Part shown: positions 1-33,267 of the stretch, in pieces
Layout: every line of letters begins with the position of its first letter
Numbering within the stretch: position 1 is the first letter of the stretch
Virus record (IMG/VR): IMGVR_UViG_3300035670_000086
Coordinates: 1 to 64,000 of that record
Reading direction: 5' to 3' (one strand)
Length of the DNA stretch: 64,000 nt
Source: a virus
Made by a program: the position numbers and the translations under genes
The notes under the pieces: generated by a model
What the model was told of the DNA's origin: nothing
Database searches by the model: none
The model's input: only the letters and a program-made list of their open reading frames with translations

Positions 1-163
1 TAAGGTTATGAAACGCATTAACAGCATCCCATTCAAAGTTTTGTTTCATAATCTCTTTGACTTTTTCCTCATGGGCATTTAAATCCATCCAATCTTTCAT
101 ATCAAACTCCCATTCATATGTAATTTGCACTTTGACTTTCTTGTTTTGGGAACTTTTGTTCAT
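1..163 (-). CDS. Hypothetical protein, 3' end outside window
   Basis: An open frame starts with ATG at 163 and runs off the left edge, giving at least 54 residues. It begins MNKSSQNKKVKVQITYEWEF and is rich in Lys, Glu and Trp. I do not recognise a family. It is separated from the next gene upstream (stop at 269) by about 105 bases that hold short repeats and a small hairpin. No Shine-Dalgarno sequence is obvious in front of the ATG. Confidence 0.6.
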   Translation of the reverse strand, partial: MNKSSQNKKVKVQITYEWEFDMKDWMDLNAHEEKVKEIMKQNFEWDAVNAFHNL

Positions 164-1847: not shown

Positions 1848-2051
1848 TTAAATGCTAGTGATCTCACAGGTACAGCCATGAGATTGCCCATTCCTAAGGT
1901 TTCGCCCAATAAGAGCAACCTGCAACGGAGGATAGTCCATGAAGTCTGCTTCTCGGATCATGGAAACTACCTGATTAACTTCTTTCTCGTTAAAATCATA
2001 TCCATCGGGGACGGTGATCTTGATCGTGAAGTCTTTGTGGTTGTCGTTCAT
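1848..2051 (-). CDS. Hypothetical early protein with leaderless-type promoter
   Basis: The 67-residue protein begins MNDNHKDFTIKITVPDGYDF. It has no recognised domain. The ATG is preceded by ACCTACC and, directly before that, TATAAT, so it has no room for a Shine-Dalgarno sequence. It is the first gene of a short operon with the two zinc-ribbon-like genes downstream. Confidence 0.75.
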   Translation of the reverse strand: MNDNHKDFTIKITVPDGYDFNEKEVNQVVSMIREADFMDYPPLQVALIGRNLRNGQSHGCTCEITSI

Positions 2052-2087
2052 GGTAGGTATTATAACCGATCAGGAAGAGATAGTCAC
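2052..2087 (-). promoter_or_regulatory. Early promoter cassette, leaderless type
   Basis: On the minus strand: GTGACT (-35) at 2087-2082, a 17-bp spacer containing CCTGATCGGT, TATAAT (-10) at 2064-2059, then ACCTACC and the ATG at 2051. The expected transcription start is at or one base before the ATG. The -35 box contains the TGA stop of the preceding gene 2084-2311. Confidence 0.8.
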
Positions 2088-2311
2088 GGGTTTTTTGAGA
2101 AATTAGTTTGGCTCATCCAATACTTTGTTTCTCGACGGGCAACAGTTAAATTTTCATCCTGATTATCCAAGAGCCTCCGAAGAGTGCAGATGATAGATTT
2201 AAGTTCTTGGACATCGTTGGTTTCAATATCCTTGGGGTCATAGTACCCGTTTAAGTTAGGCTTCATGTTGTTCATGGTAGGCAGTACCCATTTTTTGTTC
2301 ATGTTGCTCAT
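2084..2311 (-). CDS. Hypothetical early protein ending inside a promoter
   Basis: The protein has 75 residues and begins MSNMNKKWVLPTMNNMKPNL. It is polar and has no recognised domain. The C-terminus SKNP and the TGA stop are encoded by the upstream part of the next promoter cassette. The ATG follows directly on TATAAT plus 7 bases, so its mRNA should be leaderless. Confidence 0.75.
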   Translation of the reverse strand: MSNMNKKWVLPTMNNMKPNLNGYYDPKDIETNDVQELKSIICTLRRLLDNQDENLTVARRETKYWMSQTNFSKNP

Positions 2312-2347
2312 GGTAGCTATTATAACCGATCAGGAGGGGATAGTCAC
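2312..2347 (-). promoter_or_regulatory. Early promoter cassette, leaderless type
   Basis: Minus strand: GTGACT at 2347-2342, 17-bp spacer, TATAAT at 2324-2319, AGCTACC, then ATG at 2311. The same spacer core CCTGATCGGT is present as in the neighbouring copies. Confidence 0.8.
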
Positions 2348-2355
2348 AGGTTTTC

Positions 2356-2703
2356 TTAGTTTTTTTTGAACAAACGCACATGATCTCTTACCCATGCGTT
2401 ATCTGATAAATGAACATTACCAGTTAGCCAAATATCATCTGTAACCCAAGCATTCCCAGAAATGCGAACATAACCAGAAATCCAAGCGTTACCATCTACC
2501 ATCCCGTTATCACAAACACAGGAGTGTTCATCCATTCGGGCAGTATCACTTACCCTAGCCTCCCCATATACACGAGCGTCAGGGCCAATATACGCAGTAT
2601 CAGCCACAGTTGCAGTATCAGCTACCCATCCTCCCCCATTGCTATGCTGGTGAGCAGGTACAGGGCCATTACCATCTTCAAAATCAAAGGTTGTGATGCT
2701 CAT
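2356..2703 (-). CDS. Left-handed beta-helix (hexapeptide-repeat-like) protein
   Basis: The protein has 115 residues. From residue 27 on it is made of short repeats of the form DTATVA-DTAYIG-PDARVYG-EARVS, which fits a left-handed parallel beta-helix as in hexapeptide-repeat proteins. No acyltransferase active-site motif is visible. Similar repeat proteins of unknown role occur in other phages. The start retains ACCTACC before the ATG, but the -10 box seems lost (ATAAAT), so it is probably read from the promoter in front of 2716-2934. Confidence 0.75.
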   Translation of the reverse strand: MSITTFDFEDGNGPVPAHQHSNGGGWVADTATVADTAYIGPDARVYGEARVSDTARMDEHSCVCDNGMVDGNAWISGYVRISGNAWVTDDIWLTGNVHLSDNAWVRDHVRLFKKN

Positions 2704-2715
2704 GGTAGGTATTTA

Positions 2716-2934
2716 TCAGGCAGATGCATCACATAAGCAGTATTTGGAATCAAGTTCGCCGCATTTACAAGACATAGCTAAGGGCAGGTAGTTGGTAGGA
2801 TATTTATCCATCCACCATTGAATTAACTTGTTCTGCTTACGCAGCATAATACGCATCTCTGCGATCTCCTTATCCTTGCTTTGCAGCTTTTCCGACATGA
2901 GATCAATCAGTAGGTTTGTTGCTTTGTCGTTCAT
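2716..2934 (-). CDS. Hypothetical early protein with C-terminal cysteine cluster
   Basis: The protein has 72 residues. The first 45 are helical and charged. The end holds CKCGELDSKYCLC, four cysteines that could bind a metal ion. No family is recognised. It has its own leaderless-type promoter. Confidence 0.7.
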   Translation of the reverse strand: MNDKATNLLIDLMSEKLQSKDKEIAEMRIMLRKQNKLIQWWMDKYPTNYLPLAMSCKCGELDSKYCLCDASA

Positions 2935-2970
2935 GGTAGGTATTATAACCGATCAGGAAGGGATAGTCAC
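2935..2970 (-). promoter_or_regulatory. Early promoter cassette, leaderless type
   Basis: Minus strand: GTGACT at 2970-2965, 17-bp spacer, TATAAT at 2947-2942, ACCTACC, then ATG at 2934. It should also serve 2356-2703. Confidence 0.8.
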
Positions 2971-2989
2971 GAGGTTTTTGAGAATTTAT

Positions 2990-3295
2990 TTAACCTCTGT
3001 TGCCATACTCTAGATCTTTTTTCATGTTCTTGGCATCTCGGATAAAATCTTCACGAGTCTCAGGGCTGTGATTAAGATTCCGAACTTCTTCCTTGAGCGA
3101 CATTACCATATCACTTAGATAATCACGGACTGCCCACTCTTCGGACAATGCACCTACCGTAGGATTACTAAGAACTTTATTGATATGATTAAGAAGATAG
3201 TTATCCTCTTCAGTATTAATCAGATGATCACGCTGTGCTTCCAGTTGCAGGATAGTGGACTCGGACAAGGGCTTGTTGTAGGTTGCGGTCTTCAT
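2990..3295 (-). CDS. Hypothetical early helical protein
   Basis: The 101-residue protein begins MKTATYNKPLSESTILQLEA and is predicted to be mostly helical and charged. No family is recognised. It is a single-gene unit with its own promoter. Confidence 0.7.
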   Translation of the reverse strand: MKTATYNKPLSESTILQLEAQRDHLINTEEDNYLLNHINKVLSNPTVGALSEEWAVRDYLSDMVMSLKEEVRNLNHSPETREDFIRDAKNMKKDLEYGNRG

Positions 3296-3331
3296 GATGC
3301 TTAGTATAACCGATCAGGAGGGTTTGGTCAC
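3296..3331 (-). promoter_or_regulatory. Early promoter cassette, leaderless type
   Basis: Minus strand: GTGACC at 3331-3326, 17-bp spacer with CCTGATCGGT, TATACT at 3308-3303, AAGCATC, then ATG at 3295. The -35 box includes the TGA stop of 3328-3582. Confidence 0.75.
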
Positions 3332-3582
3332 GGGTTTTTTGGGAATTTACTTAACTGCTTCTTTAAGTTTTCGATCTCGATAGAACGAAGATTGCAGAGA
3401 TCAGCAACCTCTACATACCTACCATGGAAATAATTAAGTTTCTCTTCAGTTTCCTTCAACTTAAGTTCCAATTCAGCGATCTCTAGTTTTCTAGATACTT
3501 CAGCATATCGTACACCCTCCTCCCATGCGTGATTCCAGACTTGGGAGTAGGTGAGTGAAAAGGTTGTTTCGTTGTTGCTCAT
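3328..3582 (-). CDS. Hypothetical early coiled-coil protein
   Basis: The 84-residue protein has a long charged helical stretch (residues 28-78) with heptad-like spacing. It ends PKNP, with the last codons and the TGA stop inside the following promoter cassette. No family is recognised. Confidence 0.7.
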   Translation of the reverse strand: MSNNETTFSLTYSQVWNHAWEEGVRYAEVSRKLEIAELELKLKETEEKLNYFHGRYVEVADLCNLRSIEIENLKKQLSKFPKNP

Positions 3583-3618
3583 GGTAGATAATATAACCGA
3601 TCAGGATGGGATTGTCAC
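3583..3618 (-). promoter_or_regulatory. Early promoter cassette, leaderless type
   Basis: Minus strand: GTGACA at 3618-3613, 17-bp spacer, TATATT at 3595-3590, ATCTACC, then ATG at 3582. Confidence 0.75.
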
Positions 3619-3633
3619 GCACTTTTTCAGAAT

Positions 3634-3867
3634 TTATTTATACCACTCTAGAACTTCATCGTTACCATTCAACCATTCCAAAGCCATCTCTTTGGCTAAG
3701 TCTTGTCCCTGAAAACCTTTAGATGCTTTATGTCTCTCACCTTCCCATCCATAAACAAAATAAGTGTTTCCGTAATCTTTAAAATGAATTACTTCCACTA
3801 CTCTAGTATCTTTGGATAGAAAGACACCATTTAAGTCTGGATCCTTAATTTTCTGCCAGTTACTCAT
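3634..3867 (-). CDS. Hypothetical small protein
   Basis: With the start at 3867 the protein has 77 residues and begins MSNWQKIKDPDLNGVFLS. I chose this ATG because it overlaps the stop of 3864-4061 as ATGA; an alternative ATG lies three codons upstream at 3876. It is Trp- and Lys-rich with no recognised domain. It is the third gene of an operon starting at 4348. Confidence 0.7.
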   Translation of the reverse strand: MSNWQKIKDPDLNGVFLSKDTRVVEVIHFKDYGNTYFVYGWEGERHKASKGFQGQDLAKEMALEWLNGNDEVLEWYK

Positions 3868-4061
3868 TTGTGGCACTCGATAAAAGCACAGGGGTGTTCG
3901 TTGTTGTAGAAGTCTTCTACATAACCAAAGAAGTCAGCAGAGGTATCGAAACTTCTGCGAAATTCTCCATTCCAAGATTCTGTTTGTTTACAGATAGGAC
4001 ACTTAGTCCAAGTATCCTCCAAACCAGAATCAAGCAGGATATATGTTGCTTTGTTATTCAT
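3864..4061 (-). CDS. Hypothetical small protein with CPIC motif
   Basis: The 65-residue protein contains KCPICKQ near residue 18 and HPC plus ECHK at the end, so a zinc site is possible. It overlaps the genes on both sides by 4 bases (ATGA type). Function unknown. Confidence 0.7.
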   Translation of the reverse strand: MNNKATYILLDSGLEDTWTKCPICKQTESWNGEFRRSFDTSADFFGYVEDFYNNEHPCAFIECHK

Positions 4062-4348
4062 TGGTGAGGTTCCGATTTGATGTTATCTCCGAGCCAAGCC
4101 TTGCCGTTTTGAATCGTCTTAGTTGCTACTTGAATGATTCTGGGGGAGTCTTGATTATCTTCGTCTTCATATTCAAGTTCAGCAAGATCGGCAACAAGGG
4201 CAATATCATTGACTCGCTGTTCGATCCAGAAATTAGTCATTTCATGGCCGAAGCCATTGTTATCATCGACGCGCAACTTAACATCGTAAGTGCCACCAAC
4301 TTGTTGTTCTAGGACGGTTAGATCACGGATCAGTTGTGAGAGTCTCAT
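4058..4348 (-). CDS. Hypothetical early protein
   Basis: The 96-residue protein begins MRLSQLIRDLTVLEQQVGGT. The N-terminal layout (short helix, then GGTYDVKLRVDD) resembles small phage proteins of unknown function that are common in T4-like genomes. It is first in a three-gene, ATGA-coupled operon with a leaderless-type promoter. Confidence 0.75.
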   Translation of the reverse strand: MRLSQLIRDLTVLEQQVGGTYDVKLRVDDNNGFGHEMTNFWIEQRVNDIALVADLAELEYEDEDNQDSPRIIQVATKTIQNGKAWLGDNIKSEPHQ

Positions 4349-4384
4349 GGTAGGTATTATAACCGATCAGGAGGGTTTGGTCAC
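4349..4384 (-). promoter_or_regulatory. Early promoter cassette, leaderless type
   Basis: Minus strand: GTGACC at 4384-4379, 17-bp spacer, TATAAT at 4361-4356, ACCTACC, then ATG at 4348. Confidence 0.8.
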
Positions 4385-4399
4385 GGGTTTTTTGAGAAA

Positions 4400-4852
4400 T
4401 TAGTTAGCCCAAATAACTTTGGGAACATTGATAGAGTTATAGTTAGCTTTTGCTTTATTGTCAGACACTTGCGTTAAAACTAACTTTGCAATTACTGCAA
4501 AGAAGACATAACCTGAGTTTGAAACATACTCAGGATGCGAGTTGATGGGATTACAGTTACCATCATTCTCTAGCATAAATTCTAAGTGCTTGTAGGGATT
4601 GTAGTTAACATTACCGCGAAACTTACAAGCAATGGAAGTATCATCTACAAGATCACCATAGATGAAAGCATGGACATTCTTCCTACGCTCAGAAAGAACT
4701 TTGTTACGACCACTCTCGGACACTTTGAACTTAGGGTTCTTAAGTAACAGATGATCCTTGTGGCTCGTAACACGCCAACCCTTGTCAGTCTTGGTTTGAA
4801 CAGACCAACACTTCTTGTGGAAGTTCCAGTAGACTCGGCATTGCTTGCTCAT
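4400..4852 (-). CDS. Hypothetical early protein
   Basis: The 150-residue protein begins MSKQCRVYWNFHKKCWSVQT, a start I have seen in phage proteins of unknown function. The body is basic and aromatic-rich. It has no recognised catalytic motif. It is the only gene behind its own promoter. Confidence 0.75.
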   Translation of the reverse strand: MSKQCRVYWNFHKKCWSVQTKTDKGWRVTSHKDHLLLKNPKFKVSESGRNKVLSERRKNVHAFIYGDLVDDTSIACKFRGNVNYNPYKHLEFMLENDGNCNPINSHPEYVSNSGYVFFAVIAKLVLTQVSDNKAKANYNSINVPKVIWAN

Positions 4853-4888
4853 GTTACCTACTATAACCGATGACTAGGCAATAGTCAC
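4853..4888 (-). promoter_or_regulatory. Early promoter cassette, leaderless type (divergent copy)
   Basis: Minus strand: GTGACT at 4888-4883, 17-bp spacer, TATAGT at 4865-4860, AGGTAAC, then ATG at 4852. Spacing is the same as in the other copies, but the spacer core differs (CCTAGTCATCGGT). Confidence 0.75.
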
Positions 4889-4895
4889 GCTTTAT

Positions 4896-4997
4896 TTATC
4901 TTTTTTTTTCAGAATCTTTGGTTGCCGTATATAAGAACCATAGCAAAATTAGTGCATACGGAATCCAAAAATAAAGTTCTACAAACTCGTAATCCAT
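4896..4997 (-). CDS. Small membrane protein (33 aa)
   Basis: A short frame begins MDYEFVELYFWIPYALIL and has one hydrophobic segment (residues 8-24), followed by TKDSEKKR. It overlaps the preceding small membrane gene by 19 bases in another frame. The ATG lies inside that gene and has no clear Shine-Dalgarno sequence, so its reality rests on composition and position. Confidence 0.45.
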   Translation of the reverse strand: MDYEFVELYFWIPYALILLWFLYTATKDSEKKR

Positions 4998-5101
4998 AGG
5001 TATGTTACCAGCCATTTAATAACTAACAAAGGTAACCCTATCACGAGGAACAATACTAAGATTGCTCTCAAAATTATTGTGGCTACCTTTGTAAGTTTCA
5101 T
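4979..5101 (-). CDS. Small membrane protein (40 aa)
   Basis: The frame begins MKLTKVATIILRAILVLFLV and is almost entirely hydrophobic to residue 36, with one transmembrane segment and a short basic N-terminus. Its ATG overlaps the stop of 5098-5313 as ATGA, which supports translation. It fills a stretch that otherwise has no gene. Function unknown. Confidence 0.6.
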   Translation of the reverse strand: MKLTKVATIILRAILVLFLVIGLPLLVIKWLVTYLWITSL

Positions 5102-5313
5102 TTGTATTGATCTCGCCAATCCCTACCAAACAAGGTAGGAACTTGCTTTGATATCGTATCCATAACTACATCGTCTGGGTAGTGCTTTAGCAATCGTCTA
5201 GCTTCTTCCCTAACTTTACGAGGAACTTTGGGTGTGACTTTCGGATTCAAGAGATGCCGAAGAAAGTCTCTTGTTGCCGTTACAGCCCCAAACCTCTCGT
5301 AGTTAAGTGTCAT
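5098..5313 (-). CDS. Hypothetical protein resembling the BPSL0761 family
   Basis: With the start at 5313 the protein has 71 residues and begins MTLNYERFGAVTATRDFLRH. The layout (Thr-Arg-Asp-Phe-Leu, then a proline-rich turn, then REEARRLLKHYP) resembles small proteins of the BPSL0761 type, whose function is not known. This ATG follows GAGGA and lies one base past the upstream stop, so it is preferred over ATGs further upstream at 5337 and 5346. Confidence 0.65.
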   Translation of the reverse strand: MTLNYERFGAVTATRDFLRHLLNPKVTPKVPRKVREEARRLLKHYPDDVVMDTISKQVPTLFGRDWRDQYK

Positions 5314-5314
5314 A

Positions 5315-5542
5315 TTAGTCCTCGAAATCTTCGCCATATCTTGCATTCCATTGATTATAATTCTCGATCCTAGCTTGCATATGTTCCATAAGCTCTAGGC
5401 AATCCATAACTACTTGATGATAGTAGTTGATTGTTGGCTCGTAGTTGGGTTTGACTTTCTCGTTTTCGATGATATGTTTGCAAGCTGCCTTTAGATTGGT
5501 AGCTGATTCTACCAGTTGCTGATACGGATCCTTCTCTTTCAT
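5315..5542 (-). CDS. Hypothetical helical protein
   Basis: The 75-residue protein begins MKEKDPYQQLVESATNLKAA and is helical and charged. A good ribosome binding site, AAGGAG, precedes the ATG and lies across the end of the upstream gene. No family is recognised. Confidence 0.7.
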   Translation of the reverse strand: MKEKDPYQQLVESATNLKAACKHIIENEKVKPNYEPTINYYHQVVMDCLELMEHMQARIENYNQWNARYGEDFED

Positions 5543-5543
5543 A

Positions 5544-5807
5544 TCAATCTCCTTCGATGGGTTGGACTACGAGATTGGGCAGACTATCTGTACAGTCGAT
5601 AGTATCCACAGCCTCTAGTTTATATTTGACTACTTGGACTGACTTGATAGTCTCAGGCTTAAACCATTTGACTTGTCGCATCATTTGCTCCAAAACCTTC
5701 TCCTTGGTGTTGGAGAAGTTCGTCATCATATATAGGTACGGAGGCTTCGAGTCGTTGAAGGTGATTTCTACTTGCCAGATTGTCTTGTTGTTGCTGTGTG
5801 CGCTCAT
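5544..5807 (-). CDS. Hypothetical early protein
   Basis: With the start at 5807 the protein has 87 residues and begins MSAHSNNKTIWQVEITFNDS. I chose this ATG because TATACT lies 7 bases upstream with a GTGACA box 17 bp further, exactly as in the other early genes. A longer frame from 5843 would start inside that promoter. Function unknown. Confidence 0.75.
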   Translation of the reverse strand: MSAHSNNKTIWQVEITFNDSKPPYLYMMTNFSNTKEKVLEQMMRQVKWFKPETIKSVQVVKYKLEAVDTIDCTDSLPNLVVQPIEGD

Positions 5808-5843
5808 GATATACAGTATAACCAGTTGGTCAGCCCTTGTCAC
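5808..5843 (-). promoter_or_regulatory. Early promoter cassette, leaderless type (divergent copy)
   Basis: Minus strand: GTGACA at 5843-5838, 17-bp spacer, TATACT at 5820-5815, GTATATC, then ATG at 5807. The end of the upstream gene lies in the spacer. Confidence 0.75.
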
Positions 5844-6828: not shown

Positions 6829-7419
6829 TCACATCATAGTCATGTTGTAGCGAGATCTAATGTAATCTAAATAATATCTCACCTCTTCGACTTTTAACTT
6901 TGTAGCCTTACAGAGTTTAGCAACATTTACCCTGCCGTTATCTTTCATACAATCAGGGTTGCCTACGATGTTTTCTACGATCAACTTTTCTTGGGGCAGT
7001 AGTTTGACTCTGATATCTTCAAGAACATTGTCTGCAATGTTCATGTTTACAATTTTAGGGTCAACAACATCCAACAGCAGTCTTTCGTCCTGCATAGAAT
7101 AATTGTGACCATCGACTGAATAGGTAGATGTAATACCTAGTTTCTTAGTTACATCTGATCCCTTCTTACCTTTCTTGTGCCACAAGCAGGTCTTGATGTA
7201 CTTATCAAAGCCTTTGGTATCTTTGAAGTCTTCAAATTTACCATTCTTACCATTGTCCTGAGCCTCATAACCTCTGATAGCTTCTAAGGCAGAGATCCAA
7301 AGGTCTTGCACATTATCATCAGGATCACATTTTGCAACATCCCCGTTGATCTTTTTGGCAATCATATGAATAAGATTGCCATACTTTTCTTGGATAAATT
7401 GATATTGTTCTTGATTCAT
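6829..7419 (-). CDS. Putative sigma-70-like protein
   Basis: The 196-residue protein has a region-2-like part (about residues 20-90: DPDDNVQDLWISALEAIRGY, then DKYIKTCLWHKKGKKG). Its C-terminal part has two helices that could be region 4 (LPQEKLIVENIV, then KLKVEEVRYYLDYIRSRY). This is the layout of small phage sigma factors. The match is by pattern only. The gene is coupled by ATGA to the glycosylase gene upstream and is likely early, so it could direct middle transcription. Alternatively it could be another helical DNA-binding protein. Confidence 0.55.
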   Translation of the reverse strand: MNQEQYQFIQEKYGNLIHMIAKKINGDVAKCDPDDNVQDLWISALEAIRGYEAQDNGKNGKFEDFKDTKGFDKYIKTCLWHKKGKKGSDVTKKLGITSTYSVDGHNYSMQDERLLLDVVDPKIVNMNIADNVLEDIRVKLLPQEKLIVENIVGNPDCMKDNGRVNVAKLCKATKLKVEEVRYYLDYIRSRYNMTMM

Positions 7420-7832
7420 TGTACGGGCCAGAAGTATTCGATAGTTACTGCGTTTTCGGAGTCGATGCCCCAGTTAAACTGGGAGTAGTAATGAGGGTCT
7501 TTGCGAATCAGGTTAGCACGATGCGTATACCAGATACGCTGATCTTGCAGCCAAGGAGGTAGTACGAGGTTGGTTTCGTCACGCTTCTCCATGGTGTTAT
7601 TGTAGCCTCTACGAACCCACTCGTCAATACATACATTCATGTAATGAGCAAGGGCTGGAGCATATCCTTCCCACATCTTAAGTGCGGGATGACTGCGCCA
7701 GCCTTTGGTGGTCGTTCGATTAGTAAGAATATTGTGAAGTTGCATAGCCTCAACACGCTGCTTACCAAGACGGCGATAGTCTAGGCAGCGTGCGGACTCT
7801 ACAAAGTCAGCGTAGGGTAGGAAGGTCTGCAT
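7416..7832 (-). CDS. Pyrimidine dimer DNA glycosylase-like protein (MSMEG_6728 type)
   Basis: The 138-residue protein begins MQTFLPYADFVESARCLDYR and continues RLGKQRVEAMQL and GWRSHPALKMWEGY. This is the characteristic pattern of the MSMEG_6728 family, related to the T4 endonuclease V fold (Pyr_excise). By family it may act on damaged DNA, but enzymatic activity of this subgroup is not well established. It has an early-type promoter and leads a chain of ATGA-coupled genes. Confidence 0.8.
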   Translation of the reverse strand: MQTFLPYADFVESARCLDYRRLGKQRVEAMQLHNILTNRTTTKGWRSHPALKMWEGYAPALAHYMNVCIDEWVRRGYNNTMEKRDETNLVLPPWLQDQRIWYTHRANLIRKDPHYYSQFNWGIDSENAVTIEYFWPVQ

Positions 7833-7871
7833 GGTCGTGCATACTATAACCGACTACTGACACCAAGTCAC
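7833..7871 (-). promoter_or_regulatory. Early promoter, variant with longer leader
   Basis: Minus strand: GTGACT at 7871-7866, 17-bp spacer, TATAGT at 7848-7843, then ten bases before the ATG at 7832. It is the same promoter type as the cassettes at 2-6 kb, with three more bases in front of the ATG. Confidence 0.75.
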
Positions 7872-8151: not shown

Positions 8152-8226
8152 TGGTGAGCCTAGATCGACTTGCACGATCCTTTACGGATTAAAAGTCCGT
8201 TATATCGCTATCTATATTTTAGGCCC
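8152..8226 (-). tRNA. tRNA-Lys (UUU)
   Basis: The cloverleaf is complete: acceptor stem GGGCCTA/TAGGCTC, anticodon stem ACGGA/TCCGT with loop CTTTTAA, T stem GATCG/CGATC, and an encoded ACCA end. Anticodon UUU reads Lys. The T loop is TGCAAGT instead of the usual TTCAAGT. Confidence 0.88.
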
Positions 8227-13679: not shown

Positions 13680-13995
13680 TTTTATTTTTACGCATTTCAG
13701 CGAGACGCTTACCCTGTGCAACACGACCATCAGACGCTTCCATCTTAGCAATCATAGTATCATACTCTTGCTTGCTAGGAATGTGACCCTCAGGGGCTTC
13801 CGTCTTGTCAGACCCCGGCCTATAACGCCATAAGGGGCATACATAAGACTTACAGTTACGAGCATCTGATCGAGATCCGCCAAAGCAAGATGTACAAAAC
13901 ATCTCAATAGCAGCGGACCGACTACCTTCGTAGTCGGCCTTAAAACCATCCTTGGGGTTTTTGACTCTTACATCATTCTCTGTGCAGTTTCTCAT
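13672..13995 (-). CDS. Cysteine-rich zinc-binding-like phage protein
   Basis: With the start at 13995 the protein has 107 residues and begins MRNCTENDVRVKNPKDGFKA. The core MFCTSCFGG and NCKSYVCPLWRYRPG has four cysteines in the arrangement often seen in small phage zinc-finger-like proteins. TATAAT lies 8 bases upstream, so the mRNA is probably leaderless from this ATG; another ATG is two codons earlier. Function unknown. Confidence 0.7.
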   Translation of the reverse strand: MRNCTENDVRVKNPKDGFKADYEGSRSAAIEMFCTSCFGGSRSDARNCKSYVCPLWRYRPGSDKTEAPEGHIPSKQEYDTMIAKMEASDGRVAQGKRLAEMRKNKNA

Positions 13996-29345: not shown

Positions 29346-30138
29346 TTGTTTCACCCCCTAAGATAGAAGACTTAGTTATTTCCATTCTGTTTAGATCAGG
29401 ACAGACGAGGGTGTATATAGAATTTGCTGCACGCTGAATCTCGAACTGGGCATCGGGGTGTAGTCGTTGCTGCAAGAAGTGTAGTACTCCCTGCAAGCTC
29501 ACAGTCCAGTACGCCTCTGTGTAGATGTTTTGTGGAAGCATCATACGGGCGATCTCTTTGGCGATACCTGATTCAATTCTTTCCTCGTATGCTTTGTATG
29601 CAGCTTCGCACTCATTAAACATCTTAATTCTAGCTGCTGAGTGATCGAAGTCTGATCCAAGCACAACACTAGCCTGCTTATTGCCGTGAGGAGGGTTTGC
29701 ACGCATCATCATCGGGATATAGAACTCAGGCTTAAATGGAGCGTATCGACCGCTCACCTCATTCCATGAGCAGCCCTTGTCTGTATCGTACATCAAATCA
29801 AACATCTCTACAGACACAGGATTCCCATCAACTTCGTATTTTCTCCAAGTGCTGCCTACCTGATACTTTATCCATTGACGGAGTGTAAATAGGGGAGCCT
29901 TAACATGGAAGGTATAGTAGCTATGACGGAAGGGAGATGTATGCGAGTGTGCAAGAAGGAACTTGATTAAATTAATATCCTTCTCTTCCATCTCGTACCG
30001 TACTTTAGAATAACTAATGCGTGCTGCGTTTACTACTTTCAAGGCAGCATCATTTTTCATTCTATCTACGATTGAAATAAATCCAATACCATCGTTGAGA
30101 AAATAACTTCTATTAGGGTTTTCAGCCGACAATGACAT
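29338..30138 (-). CDS. thyX: Flavin-dependent thymidylate synthase
   Basis: With the start at 30138 the protein has 266 residues, and AAGGAG precedes this ATG. FRHSYYTFHVKAPLFTLRQW and SWNEVSGRY are typical ThyX segments. The usual RHR-x7-S signature is changed: RQWI is followed by KYQ and about 30 extra residues before SWNEVSGRY. It should methylate dUMP to dTMP with FAD and folate, downstream of the deaminase. Confidence 0.9.
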   Translation of the reverse strand: MSLSAENPNRSYFLNDGIGFISIVDRMKNDAALKVVNAARISYSKVRYEMEEKDINLIKFLLAHSHTSPFRHSYYTFHVKAPLFTLRQWIKYQVGSTWRKYEVDGNPVSVEMFDLMYDTDKGCSWNEVSGRYAPFKPEFYIPMMMRANPPHGNKQASVVLGSDFDHSAARIKMFNECEAAYKAYEERIESGIAKEIARMMLPQNIYTEAYWTVSLQGVLHFLQQRLHPDAQFEIQRAANSIYTLVCPDLNRMEITKSSILGGETNA

Positions 30139-31234
30139 TCTTAATCTCCTTGATATTGGCGACACCGCCACTCTTGTTAAACTTTACATCTACACCGCCA
30201 CCGAAGGAAGTTCCTACTTCTACCTCAATAGCCATAGGTACTGCACAATTAAATCCCATGACCTTACGGAGGTAGGGGTATTGTGTCATTTTATGATTCA
30301 TAATCATCAGAGCTTCGTCAATCTCGTCCTTAGGACTAACAACTTCAATCGAGTCGTGTACGCTTGCAACAACACGAGATTGCATGTTTTGTGCTTTGAA
30401 CTCTTGAGCAATATCTAGAAGTGCGAAGGTTGTGATCTCTGATGCGGAGCTTTGAATAATAAAGTTCACACCCTGACGCTCGCAGCGAGAACGGATCTTG
30501 GGGATAGGAGATCTGATATTGTCTAAATTTCTACGGCGACCGAAAATACTCTTGGCATACTTGTTCTTGTTAATGTATTCCTTGACCTCATTCATCCAAG
30601 CAAACACGCCGGGATAAACCGTTCCATAAGTATCAATGATGTCTTTAGCTTCGTCGATATCAATATTAACAGTTTTACTGAGCTTGAACTCGCTACCACC
30701 GTACACAATCAAGAACGAAACTGATTTAGCGATCTGGCGTTCTTCCTTAGTAATCTGGTCAATAGGCTTCTTCCAAATAAGCGAGGCTGTGTACTTGTGT
30801 AGGTCTTGACCAGAGAAGAACGCCTGAATTAGATTCTTGTCTTTGCACACATGAGCCAAGATTCTAAGTTCCATCGCTGAGTAGTCAGCAGCGATAAAGT
30901 AGTGATCCTTAGGAGCTACGAATAGGCTACGGATGTTCGGATCCTTAGTCCGAGGCAAAGTGTGGAACGACACACCCATATTCTCACGAGCGGAATATGC
31001 AGCACAAGACAATCGTCCTGTAACTGTGCCATCGAATCGGAAGTCGTAGTACACCTTATCATGACCGTTATATGTGACGGCTTTCCCCACGCCATCAATG
31101 TAGGTGGACTGCAACTTCTCTAGACCACGAAGCTCTTGAAGTTTGTTCAAGAAGTCGCGTGCTCGTTCTAGCTTCTCAGTAGGAGTGCTGCTGATTACAC
31201 TCTTACTGACTGCAATAGGATCAGTTCTTGCCAT
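30122..31234 (-). CDS. Family A DNA polymerase, palm and fingers part
   Basis: The 370-residue protein carries the polymerase core: GTVTGRLSC, motif A DYSAMELRILAH (Asp117), motif B RQIAKSVSFLIVYGG (166-180) and motif C VHDSIEV (Asp294). It lacks the exonuclease and most of the thumb, which are encoded by two frames further upstream. The dNMP kinase gene lies between. Its ATG overlaps the kinase stop by 14 bases. It must assemble with the other parts to make a complete polymerase. Confidence 0.92.
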   Translation of the reverse strand: MARTDPIAVSKSVISSTPTEKLERARDFLNKLQELRGLEKLQSTYIDGVGKAVTYNGHDKVYYDFRFDGTVTGRLSCAAYSARENMGVSFHTLPRTKDPNIRSLFVAPKDHYFIAADYSAMELRILAHVCKDKNLIQAFFSGQDLHKYTASLIWKKPIDQITKEERQIAKSVSFLIVYGGSEFKLSKTVNIDIDEAKDIIDTYGTVYPGVFAWMNEVKEYINKNKYAKSIFGRRRNLDNIRSPIPKIRSRCERQGVNFIIQSSASEITTFALLDIAQEFKAQNMQSRVVASVHDSIEVVSPKDEIDEALMIMNHKMTQYPYLRKVMGFNCAVPMAIEVEVGTSFGGGVDVKFNKSGGVANIKEIKNVIVG

Positions 31235-31775: not shown

Positions 31776-32248
31776 CTCGACTCCAGTTCATCTTCTATCT
31801 GCTCTAACAAGATCTCTATACACTCTGAGTTTACTGATGGCTTCCCCTTCGCCGTGTTCACAGGAGGATACAGTTGAAAACTATCTTCCCGTGTGAATAG
31901 GATATCTACCAAGTCAGCCGAGGAATTCATATTGTCTTCCACAGCTACTTCTGGGATAGCCTTGATGTCCTGATGCTTACCAGTGATCTTAGCTTCAAGG
32001 TCTGCATTAAGTTTGTCTAGTGTACTTGAGTCTACTTCCAGACCATTGTACTCGATTTCAGCAAATACAGGGGTCATGGGGGCAATTAGATTCTCGTACA
32101 GGTGATGTAACTCTAACTCCTTAAGCTGATCCTCCAACAAGTGGAAGATCTTCCAAGTGAAGAATGCATCTTGTGCATTACCTTCAGCCAACTCGGTGAG
32201 AGACATCTCAGCCCAGTTCTGCTTCTTGGGATCCTTAACGGTTAACAT
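31772..32248 (-). CDS. Family A DNA polymerase, end of exonuclease domain and thumb
   Basis: The 158-residue protein begins MLTVKDPKKQNWAEMSLTEL. NAQDAFFTWKIFHLLEDQL matches the Exo III motif of the 3'-5' exonuclease. The rest (LVDILFTRE, then a region ending EQIEDELESR) looks like the start of the thumb. A perfect AAGGAG lies before the ATG, and the stop of the preceding part overlaps as TGATG. This supports a true split gene and not a sequencing error. Confidence 0.85.
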   Translation of the reverse strand: MLTVKDPKKQNWAEMSLTELAEGNAQDAFFTWKIFHLLEDQLKELELHHLYENLIAPMTPVFAEIEYNGLEVDSSTLDKLNADLEAKITGKHQDIKAIPEVAVEDNMNSSADLVDILFTREDSFQLYPPVNTAKGKPSVNSECIEILLEQIEDELESR

Positions 32249-33267
32249 CAGAACTCCTTCAGGTACTCGGGGAAGTATTGCTTAACAAGATCCATTAACG
32301 ACTTGGGTGCGTCTTCACGGATAAAGTGAGATACTAGCTTAGTGTCCCACACATTCGTAAAGGTGATTCCCTGCCCATACAAGAACTTCAGGTCGAACTT
32401 AGCGTTCTGTAGAATCTTCTTGTTGTTGGGGTTGTTGAAGATCTTGTTTAGTATAATAGCCACCTGCTTACGGTCTTCTACGGAAAACGGAGATTCTTTG
32501 TGGATGTAAGGAATGATGGCTTGCTTTAATTCTCCGTCCTGCTTGTAAGAGATAGCTATCGTCATGATGGAATCCTTCTTGAAATCCAAACCCGTAGTTT
32601 CAATGTCTACAGCAATGTTTTCCTTCTGTCCGTATAAGAAGGACAGATTTTCTAGCTGTTCTAGCGACATTATGATCTCGTAAGGCACAATCAGTTCACT
32701 ATCCTTCTTTAGGATATACTTATTGTACCCGTTACGGATATCCTGCTGGAAGAGGGTTACGAGCTTTGGCTCAATGGATACCGAGGCTGGGTGCAGGATG
32801 GGGATGACGGGGATACCATTGTAATCAAAAGTCTTGCCCCGCTTGTTAGTAATGCCAGACTTCTTAATAAGCATCTTCATGGCTAGGTTGCCACAAGTAA
32901 AGATTAGCTTTGGCTTGTACTGATCTACCGTAGCCTGTAAGTGGTTTCGGCAGATTTCCATGTTAGAGGGAGACATATCCTCCTCCTTAACATCTGGACA
33001 CTTGATTGCAGCAGCCACAGCGTACTTTTTAATTATTGGGTTAACATAACCCTTAAAGACCGCCTCCTCACCCTTGTCGGAAAGGTTGGTAATCTCAAAC
33101 CCTCCCCAACGGAGTGAGTCCATAAGGAACAAAACATCAGTCTGCTCTGCTCCAGTGTAGTCCATATGAGCATGGATAGGCTTGGGCTTGTCTAGAATAG
33201 AACATCCTTGGCAAACAGGATTGTTGCAGTTTTTTCTATTCTTATAGAGATCTAAAAGGTCTACCAT
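32248..33267 (-). CDS. UDG-like domain fused to start of polymerase exonuclease
   Basis: The 339-residue protein has a uracil-DNA glycosylase superfamily-like N-terminal half (residues 1-180). It has cysteines CNNPVCQGC near the start, then NHLQATVDQYKPKLIFTCGN and IPVIPILHPASV. From about 215 it carries the 3'-5' exonuclease motifs Exo I VDIETTGLD and Exo II NAKFDLKFL. SPO1-type phage polymerases have the same fused domain. The catalytic glycosylase motif seems changed, so activity is uncertain. It ends before Exo III, which is in the next frame. Confidence 0.85.
   Translation of the reverse strand: MVDLLDLYKNRKNCNNPVCQGCSILDKPKPIHAHMDYTGAEQTDVLFLMDSLRWGGFEITNLSDKGEEAVFKGYVNPIIKKYAVAAAIKCPDVKEEDMSPSNMEICRNHLQATVDQYKPKLIFTCGNLAMKMLIKKSGITNKRGKTFDYNGIPVIPILHPASVSIEPKLVTLFQQDIRNGYNKYILKKDSELIVPYEIIMSLEQLENLSFLYGQKENIAVDIETTGLDFKKDSIMTIAISYKQDGELKQAIIPYIHKESPFSVEDRKQVAIILNKIFNNPNNKKILQNAKFDLKFLYGQGITFTNVWDTKLVSHFIREDAPKSLMDLVKQYFPEYLKEF

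Follow-up and report, generated by a model that had tools for sequence, protein, structure and literature searches.

Predicted leaderless promoter cassettes fused to start codons in a group of uncultivated T4-like phages

Leaderless initiation in phages has usually been seen as a curiosity, lambda cI and phiYS40 being the examples found. The cI mRNA of lambda is leaderless (PMC3160421), and the Thermus phage phiYS40 produces leaderless middle and late mRNAs (PMC3594737). Among cellular genes, TA-led genes have been described in Actinobacteria (PMC3160421), and in Deinococcus-Thermus a -10 motif lies adjacent to ORFs, the -10 box of Deinococcus leaderless genes being placed 6-7 bp before the ORF (PMC12340547). 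At the translational level, CA repeats after the start codon have been found to boost leaderless translation, leadered mRNAs being helped too (PMC9031893). Cluster K mycobacteriophages, in turn, carry start-associated sequences (SAS and ESAS) (PMC3203893). The repeats described here are very probably sigma-70-type promoters fused to start codons, which would give leaderless mRNAs, and comparison with relatives supports a real, selected leaderless promoter architecture across a group of uncultivated T4-like phages.

The window, that is, the whole stretch of DNA that was analysed, comprises bases 1-64000 of the 99,866-bp (99.9-kb) IMG/VR virus record IMGVR_UViG_3300035670_000086 (G000). The phage is T4-like: Pfam matches comprise a Gp23 capsid, a T4-type gp20 portal, a gp18 sheath, a gp32-like SSB and a large terminase (the latter scoring close to the cut-off), and a sigma region-2 protein is also among them. 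No close relative and no DNA match were found among 50,697 GenBank phages, known phages giving only distant sheath and RNR matches. In the related genome G001, the cassette block is followed by about 5 kb of further genes and then by the terminase end, and several genes of this bridge have predicted leaderless promoters of another family. This arrangement suggests that the G000 record (ends 1 and 99866) is probably incomplete and that it probably does not show all of the leaderless genes of the phage. Regarding other features of the window, a fifth tRNA (8155-8226) is recognized by Rfam but not by ARAGORN, and at 32248-33267 and 30122-31234 one protein combines a uracil-DNA-glycosylase-like domain with a PolA 3'-5' exonuclease domain and adjoins a short, 370-aa PolA polymerase, the polymerase being apparently split.

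Eight minus-strand genes are preceded by GTGACN, 17 bp, a TATAAT-like box (TATAAT, TATACT, TATATT or TATAGT), 7 bp and the ATG (Table 1). The first-pass annotation had described these eight starts with a GTGAC -35 box, exact 17-bp spacers and exact 7-bp gaps, and every element was found where it had been placed, including the spacer core CCTGATCGGT that six of the eight have in common. Strict matches to GTGACN-16..18-TATAAT-5..9-ATG numbered 4 in the window against 0.01 expected from shuffles. When up to 3 mismatches were allowed, all eight cassettes and a ninth were recovered, the reversed-pattern control yielding 0. As in sigma-70 promoters, the -35/-10 spacer measures 17 bp in 9/9 cassettes, with hexamers matching at 9-10 of 12 positions. 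All eight genes start with ATG, the codon to which the scans of relatives were limited. Two elements go beyond the original eight, namely the ninth cassette (ATG at 7832) and a decayed one before 2703 (CTGCCTGATAAATACCTACCATG) that is devoid of its -10 box, the G005 orthologue of the corresponding gene having a full cassette. Inside gene 2084-2311, CTGCCTACCATGAACAACATG (window 2275-2290) resembles the tail of another cassette and is possibly a trace of past swapping.

Table 1. Cassettes and associated features on the minus strand of the window
Feature	Position	Strand	ATG	Gene and remarks
GTGACT-17-TATAAT-7-ATG	2049..2087	-	2051	gene 1848-2051; start kept at residue 1 in relatives
GTGACT-17-TATAAT-7-ATG	2309..2347	-	2311	gene 2084-2311
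decayed cassette CCTGATAAATACCTACCATG	2701..2725	-		precedes gene 2356-2703
cassette, predicted leaderless	2932..2970	-	2934	gene 2716-2934
cassette, -10 TATACT	3293..3331	-	3295	gene 2990-3295; cassette-bearing orthologues in G001, G002
cassette, -10 TATATT	3580..3618	-	3582	gene 3328-3582
cassette	4346..4384	-	4348	gene 4058-4348; cassette-bearing orthologues in G002, G003, G005, G008
cassette, -10 TATAGT	4850..4888	-	4852	gene 4400-4852
cassette, -10 TATACT, diverged spacer	5805..5843	-	5807	gene 5544-5807
sigma-70 region-2-like protein	6829..7419	-		weak PF04542, below curated cut-off
ninth cassette GTGACT-17-TATAGT-10-ATG	7830..7871	-	7832	pyrimidine dimer glycosylase gene 7416-7832

Regarding the genes themselves, the protein of gene 4400-4852 belongs to the mycobacteriophage L5 gp82 family PF25735. 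Gene 4058-4348 is followed on its 3' side by two ATGA-overlapping genes, 3864-4061 and then 3634-3867, and the G008 orthologue of gene 5544-5807 displays identical geometry with a different spacer. For the glycosylase gene 7416-7832 a leader of about 2-4 nt would be expected; in its orthologues the gap has stayed short (10-12 bp), with promoters that differ. In about 50 distinct contexts examined, this gene is mostly SD-led or coupled outside the phage group, and the idea that a leaderless setting is a property of the gene was therefore rejected. Gene 6829-7419 comes after it with a stop/start overlap and encodes a second sigma-70 region-2-like protein besides that of 33291, kept in relatives; its homologues in L310, L317 and L333 lie directly behind predicted leaderless cassettes, and a sigma role is proposed only tentatively. 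Two further genes had also been suggested to be leaderless. The gene at 13995 does have a TATAAT near its ATG (8 bp), but the spacer measures 18 bp and the -35 box has one mismatch, and this arrangement is common only to one near-identical phage. In three phages about 53-56% identical in the protein, TATNAT lies exactly 5 bp from the ATG of the late-type sigma gene (33291 in the window), but a good -35 box is absent. Neither gene is convincing as an additional leaderless case.

The position of the predicted RNA start is set by the gap between the -10 box and the ATG. Initiation by RNA polymerase usually takes place 7-8 bases beyond the -10 box, preferably at a purine that follows a pyrimidine. 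The 7-bp gap ends in C, and the A of the ATG, the eighth base past the -10 box, is the first suitable purine, which makes it the expected transcription start; a start one base earlier, with a 1-nt leader, is possible. The base at -1 is C in 36/37 cassettes versus 12/90 other genes of this phage, an arrangement that would provide the pyrimidine-A start preferred by the polymerase. The lack of a ribosome binding site proposed in the first-pass annotation was borne out, with an SD-like 4-mer in the -20 to -4 interval of 0/8 window cassettes. Over all cassettes such 4-mers appear in 2/37, one too near the ATG and the other overlapping the -10 box. Among the other minus-strand genes of the phage, 72/94 have an SD match of at least 4 bases, an upper estimate because the choice of starts favoured SD.

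The beginning of the coding sequence is also peculiar. Codons 2-11 of the 37 cassette genes contain 6.8 CA/AC dinucleotides per 30 nt versus 4.0 in SD genes (P=6e-7), while in codons 21-30 both classes are equal. In a set of 140 genes from relatives the corresponding value is 5.8, compared with 3.6 further along these genes (P=4e-11), an enrichment due to A and not to C. Other candidate signatures were discarded. The first 40 nt of the mRNA are no less structured than in SD genes, and terminator-like sites between cassettes do not exceed shuffles, so isolation of each cassette by a terminator was rejected, and some mRNAs must also arise by read-through and include upstream sequence. Likewise, no claim is made for a TATAAATA-like class of late promoters, since only 3/51 upstream regions matched the search expression.

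Comparison with relatives makes the case for leaderless mRNAs strong. The same cassette family, at exactly 7 bp, is present in close and middle relatives (G001, G002, G003/G005 and G008), whereas this distance is not seen in unrelated contigs whose match to the promoter part is due to chance. Alignments of orthologous proteins begin at the first residue even where identity is as low as 39% (39-68%), which argues that the cassette ATG is the start. Other promoter families occupy the same position. A second block in G008 has TTGACA-16-TATAAT-6-ATG, with single 17/6 and 17/7 cases, and G001 has GATAAT/TATAAT-ACATAC-ATG, TTGACC-18-GATAAT-6-ATG and TTGCAA-16-TATAAT-6. A 130.6-kb collinear T4-like relative, P3 (contig QCKN01000003.1, L239-L245), carries TTGNNN-16/17-TATAAT-6/7-ATG at both contig ends. 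As cassette copies inside one phage are homologous, counts overstate independence, which comes instead from the different families. Conservation of 6-7 bp over at least three of them, with C at -1, supports the earlier expectation of a start on the A of the ATG or one base before it. The -10-to-ATG distances of ORF starts in five related genomes peak at 6 bp (20) and 7 bp (32) against a mean of 4.9 elsewhere; given the relatedness of the copies, the Poisson value of 2e-21 is not read as a probability. A clear 6-7 bp peak is absent in T4, S-PM2 and HTVC008M, and P-SSM2 has a slight one. The P3 contig comes from a Prochlorococcus single-cell genome and was the sole good relative in a scan of cellular genomes, but Prochlorococcus is no more than a possible host: psbA is absent from the P3 contig and located elsewhere in that genome, and the contig may represent a co-sorted virion.

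Orthologues also reveal what happens when a cassette is missing. The G001/G003 orthologues of 2084-2311 lack the cassette, with its promoter and the first 3 residues (MSN); their start lies three codons further on, and GGAG precedes it by 7 nt. The G002 orthologue of 3328-3582 has lost the cassette and overlaps the previous gene by ATGA. These two swaps indicate that the cassette and SD or coupling substitute for each other.

The same organization is found in the wider IMG/VR collection. The P3 motif TTG-N20-TATAATACACGCATG matched 66 stretches, and 45 of the 55 distinct sites mark the beginning of an ORF of 40 aa or more. These stretches contain 260 other strong promoters (those with the P3 motif left out), of which 67 lie 6 bp and 18 lie 7 bp from the ATG (85/260), and no other distance accounts for more than 8; C directly precedes the ATG in 80/85. 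Up to 11 further cassettes occur on single stretches of 9-15 kb. In 24 stretches there are homologues of proteins of this phage, in many cases its portal and terminase with 50-60% identity. Five others (L288, L308, L321, L339 and L340) have no match to its proteins, and from this the architecture may reach beyond this phage group. The five contain an identical UV-endonuclease UvdE-like gene of 348 aa behind TTGACA-17-TATAATACACGC-ATG.

Taken as promoters, the cassettes would work as follows. Host RNA polymerase would bind GTGAC/TATAAT and, at a distance of 7 or 8 bases from the -10 box, begin the RNA with the A of the ATG. The resulting mRNA would have no leader, and ribosomes would presumably initiate at its 5'-terminal AUG in the 70S-type mode, with help from the A- and CA-rich codons behind it. 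Every cassette would constitute a self-contained unit consisting of the stop of the previous gene, an A-rich stretch, the promoter, the ATG and sometimes the first codons. Small genes could thus be exchanged between relatives, being gained, lost and swapped by recombination in the repeats.

Several other explanations have to be considered. RNA might start 1-4 nt before the ATG, with ribosomes initiating near the 5' end and not at it; the most common start, 7 bases past the -10 box, would leave a 1-nt leader with a 7-bp gap, and the 7832 gene and its orthologues, with their wider gaps and different promoters, point the same way. Such very short leaders are nevertheless unlikely, since the A of the ATG is the only purine at the expected start whether a family has the 6-bp or the 7-bp gap, C precedes nearly every ATG and gaps of 8-9 bp are hardly used. 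Alternatively, the promoters could be real but the protein made from longer transcripts that read through, either by coupling or by leadered initiation that needs no SD, with the ATG distance being incidental. The lack of any excess of terminators between the genes and the stop/start coupling of some downstream genes would suit this view. A distance held at 6-7 bp over unrelated promoter families, and the presence of SD or coupling in place of a missing cassette, make it improbable.

The near identity of the copies, the conservation of the non-promoter core CCTGATCGGT and the gain and loss of cassettes among orthologues would also be expected of recombination or regulatory-protein sites spread by homology, their promoter geometry being secondary. 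This explanation appears very improbable in view of the families that lack CCTGATCGGT yet maintain the -35 box, the -10 box and the ATG distance, although both roles may coexist in the same repeats. Least credible of all is that the ATGs were mis-chosen and that translation begins further inside the genes, at codons served by SD sites: 2/37 cassette genes do contain such an in-frame start behind an SD-like site, but the other 35/37 have none, and orthologues keep their alignment from the first residue even when well diverged. Promoters fused to start codons and yielding leaderless mRNAs are thus the preferred reading.

The cassette genes are probably early, as judged from their type and content, the host-like promoters and the existence of a separate late-type sigma gene. 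It is possible, though tentative, that this uncultivated T4-like group keeps its takeover genes on interchangeable leaderless cassettes and switches from leaderless to SD initiation between early and late expression, so that the initiation mode would itself help to set the timing; of this proposal, the leaderless arrays across the clade are supported. Running a set of genes from leaderless promoters would, outside Thermus phages, be a strategy that is little known among phages. If the leaderless reading holds, a common environmental T4-like group would possess plug-in expression, in which any small gene placed behind a cassette is expressed without a 5' UTR. The cassettes would also supply naturally occurring strong leaderless promoters with which 70S initiation could be tested, offer a way to get at genes of host takeover, and provide a start-calling rule for phage genes that SD-based gene finders may miss.

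Within a literature that was covered in part, leaderless phage mRNAs as such are already known from lambda cI and phiYS40, and the new element is the modular leaderless cassette array in T4-like phages. Like the lambda cI transcript, the mRNAs predicted here would begin at the AUG, but cI is a single gene of a temperate phage, whereas many genes are served here by one repeated cassette. The cluster K SAS resemble the cassettes as short repeats just upstream of the starts of small scattered genes, modular between phages. However, their signature GGGATAGGAGCCC contains an SD core and they are thought to be translational, while the cassettes are devoid of any AGGAG-type site and seem to be promoters that replace the SD. 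The TA-led genes of Actinobacteria and Deinococcus-Thermus also have a -10 box 6-7 bp before the ORF that leads to a leaderless mRNA, and the cassettes share with them the -10 placement (7 bp in 8/8, with the 6-7 bp peak in relatives), the absence of SD and the AUG start; those are cellular genes, often without a -35 box, whereas these are phage genes with strong -35 boxes and repeated spacers. As in phiYS40, many mRNAs of one phage would be leaderless, a prediction made here from sequence. In phiYS40, however, they belong to the middle and late classes in a Thermus host, while the cassettes of these T4-like phages place small, probably early genes under near-consensus host-type promoters.
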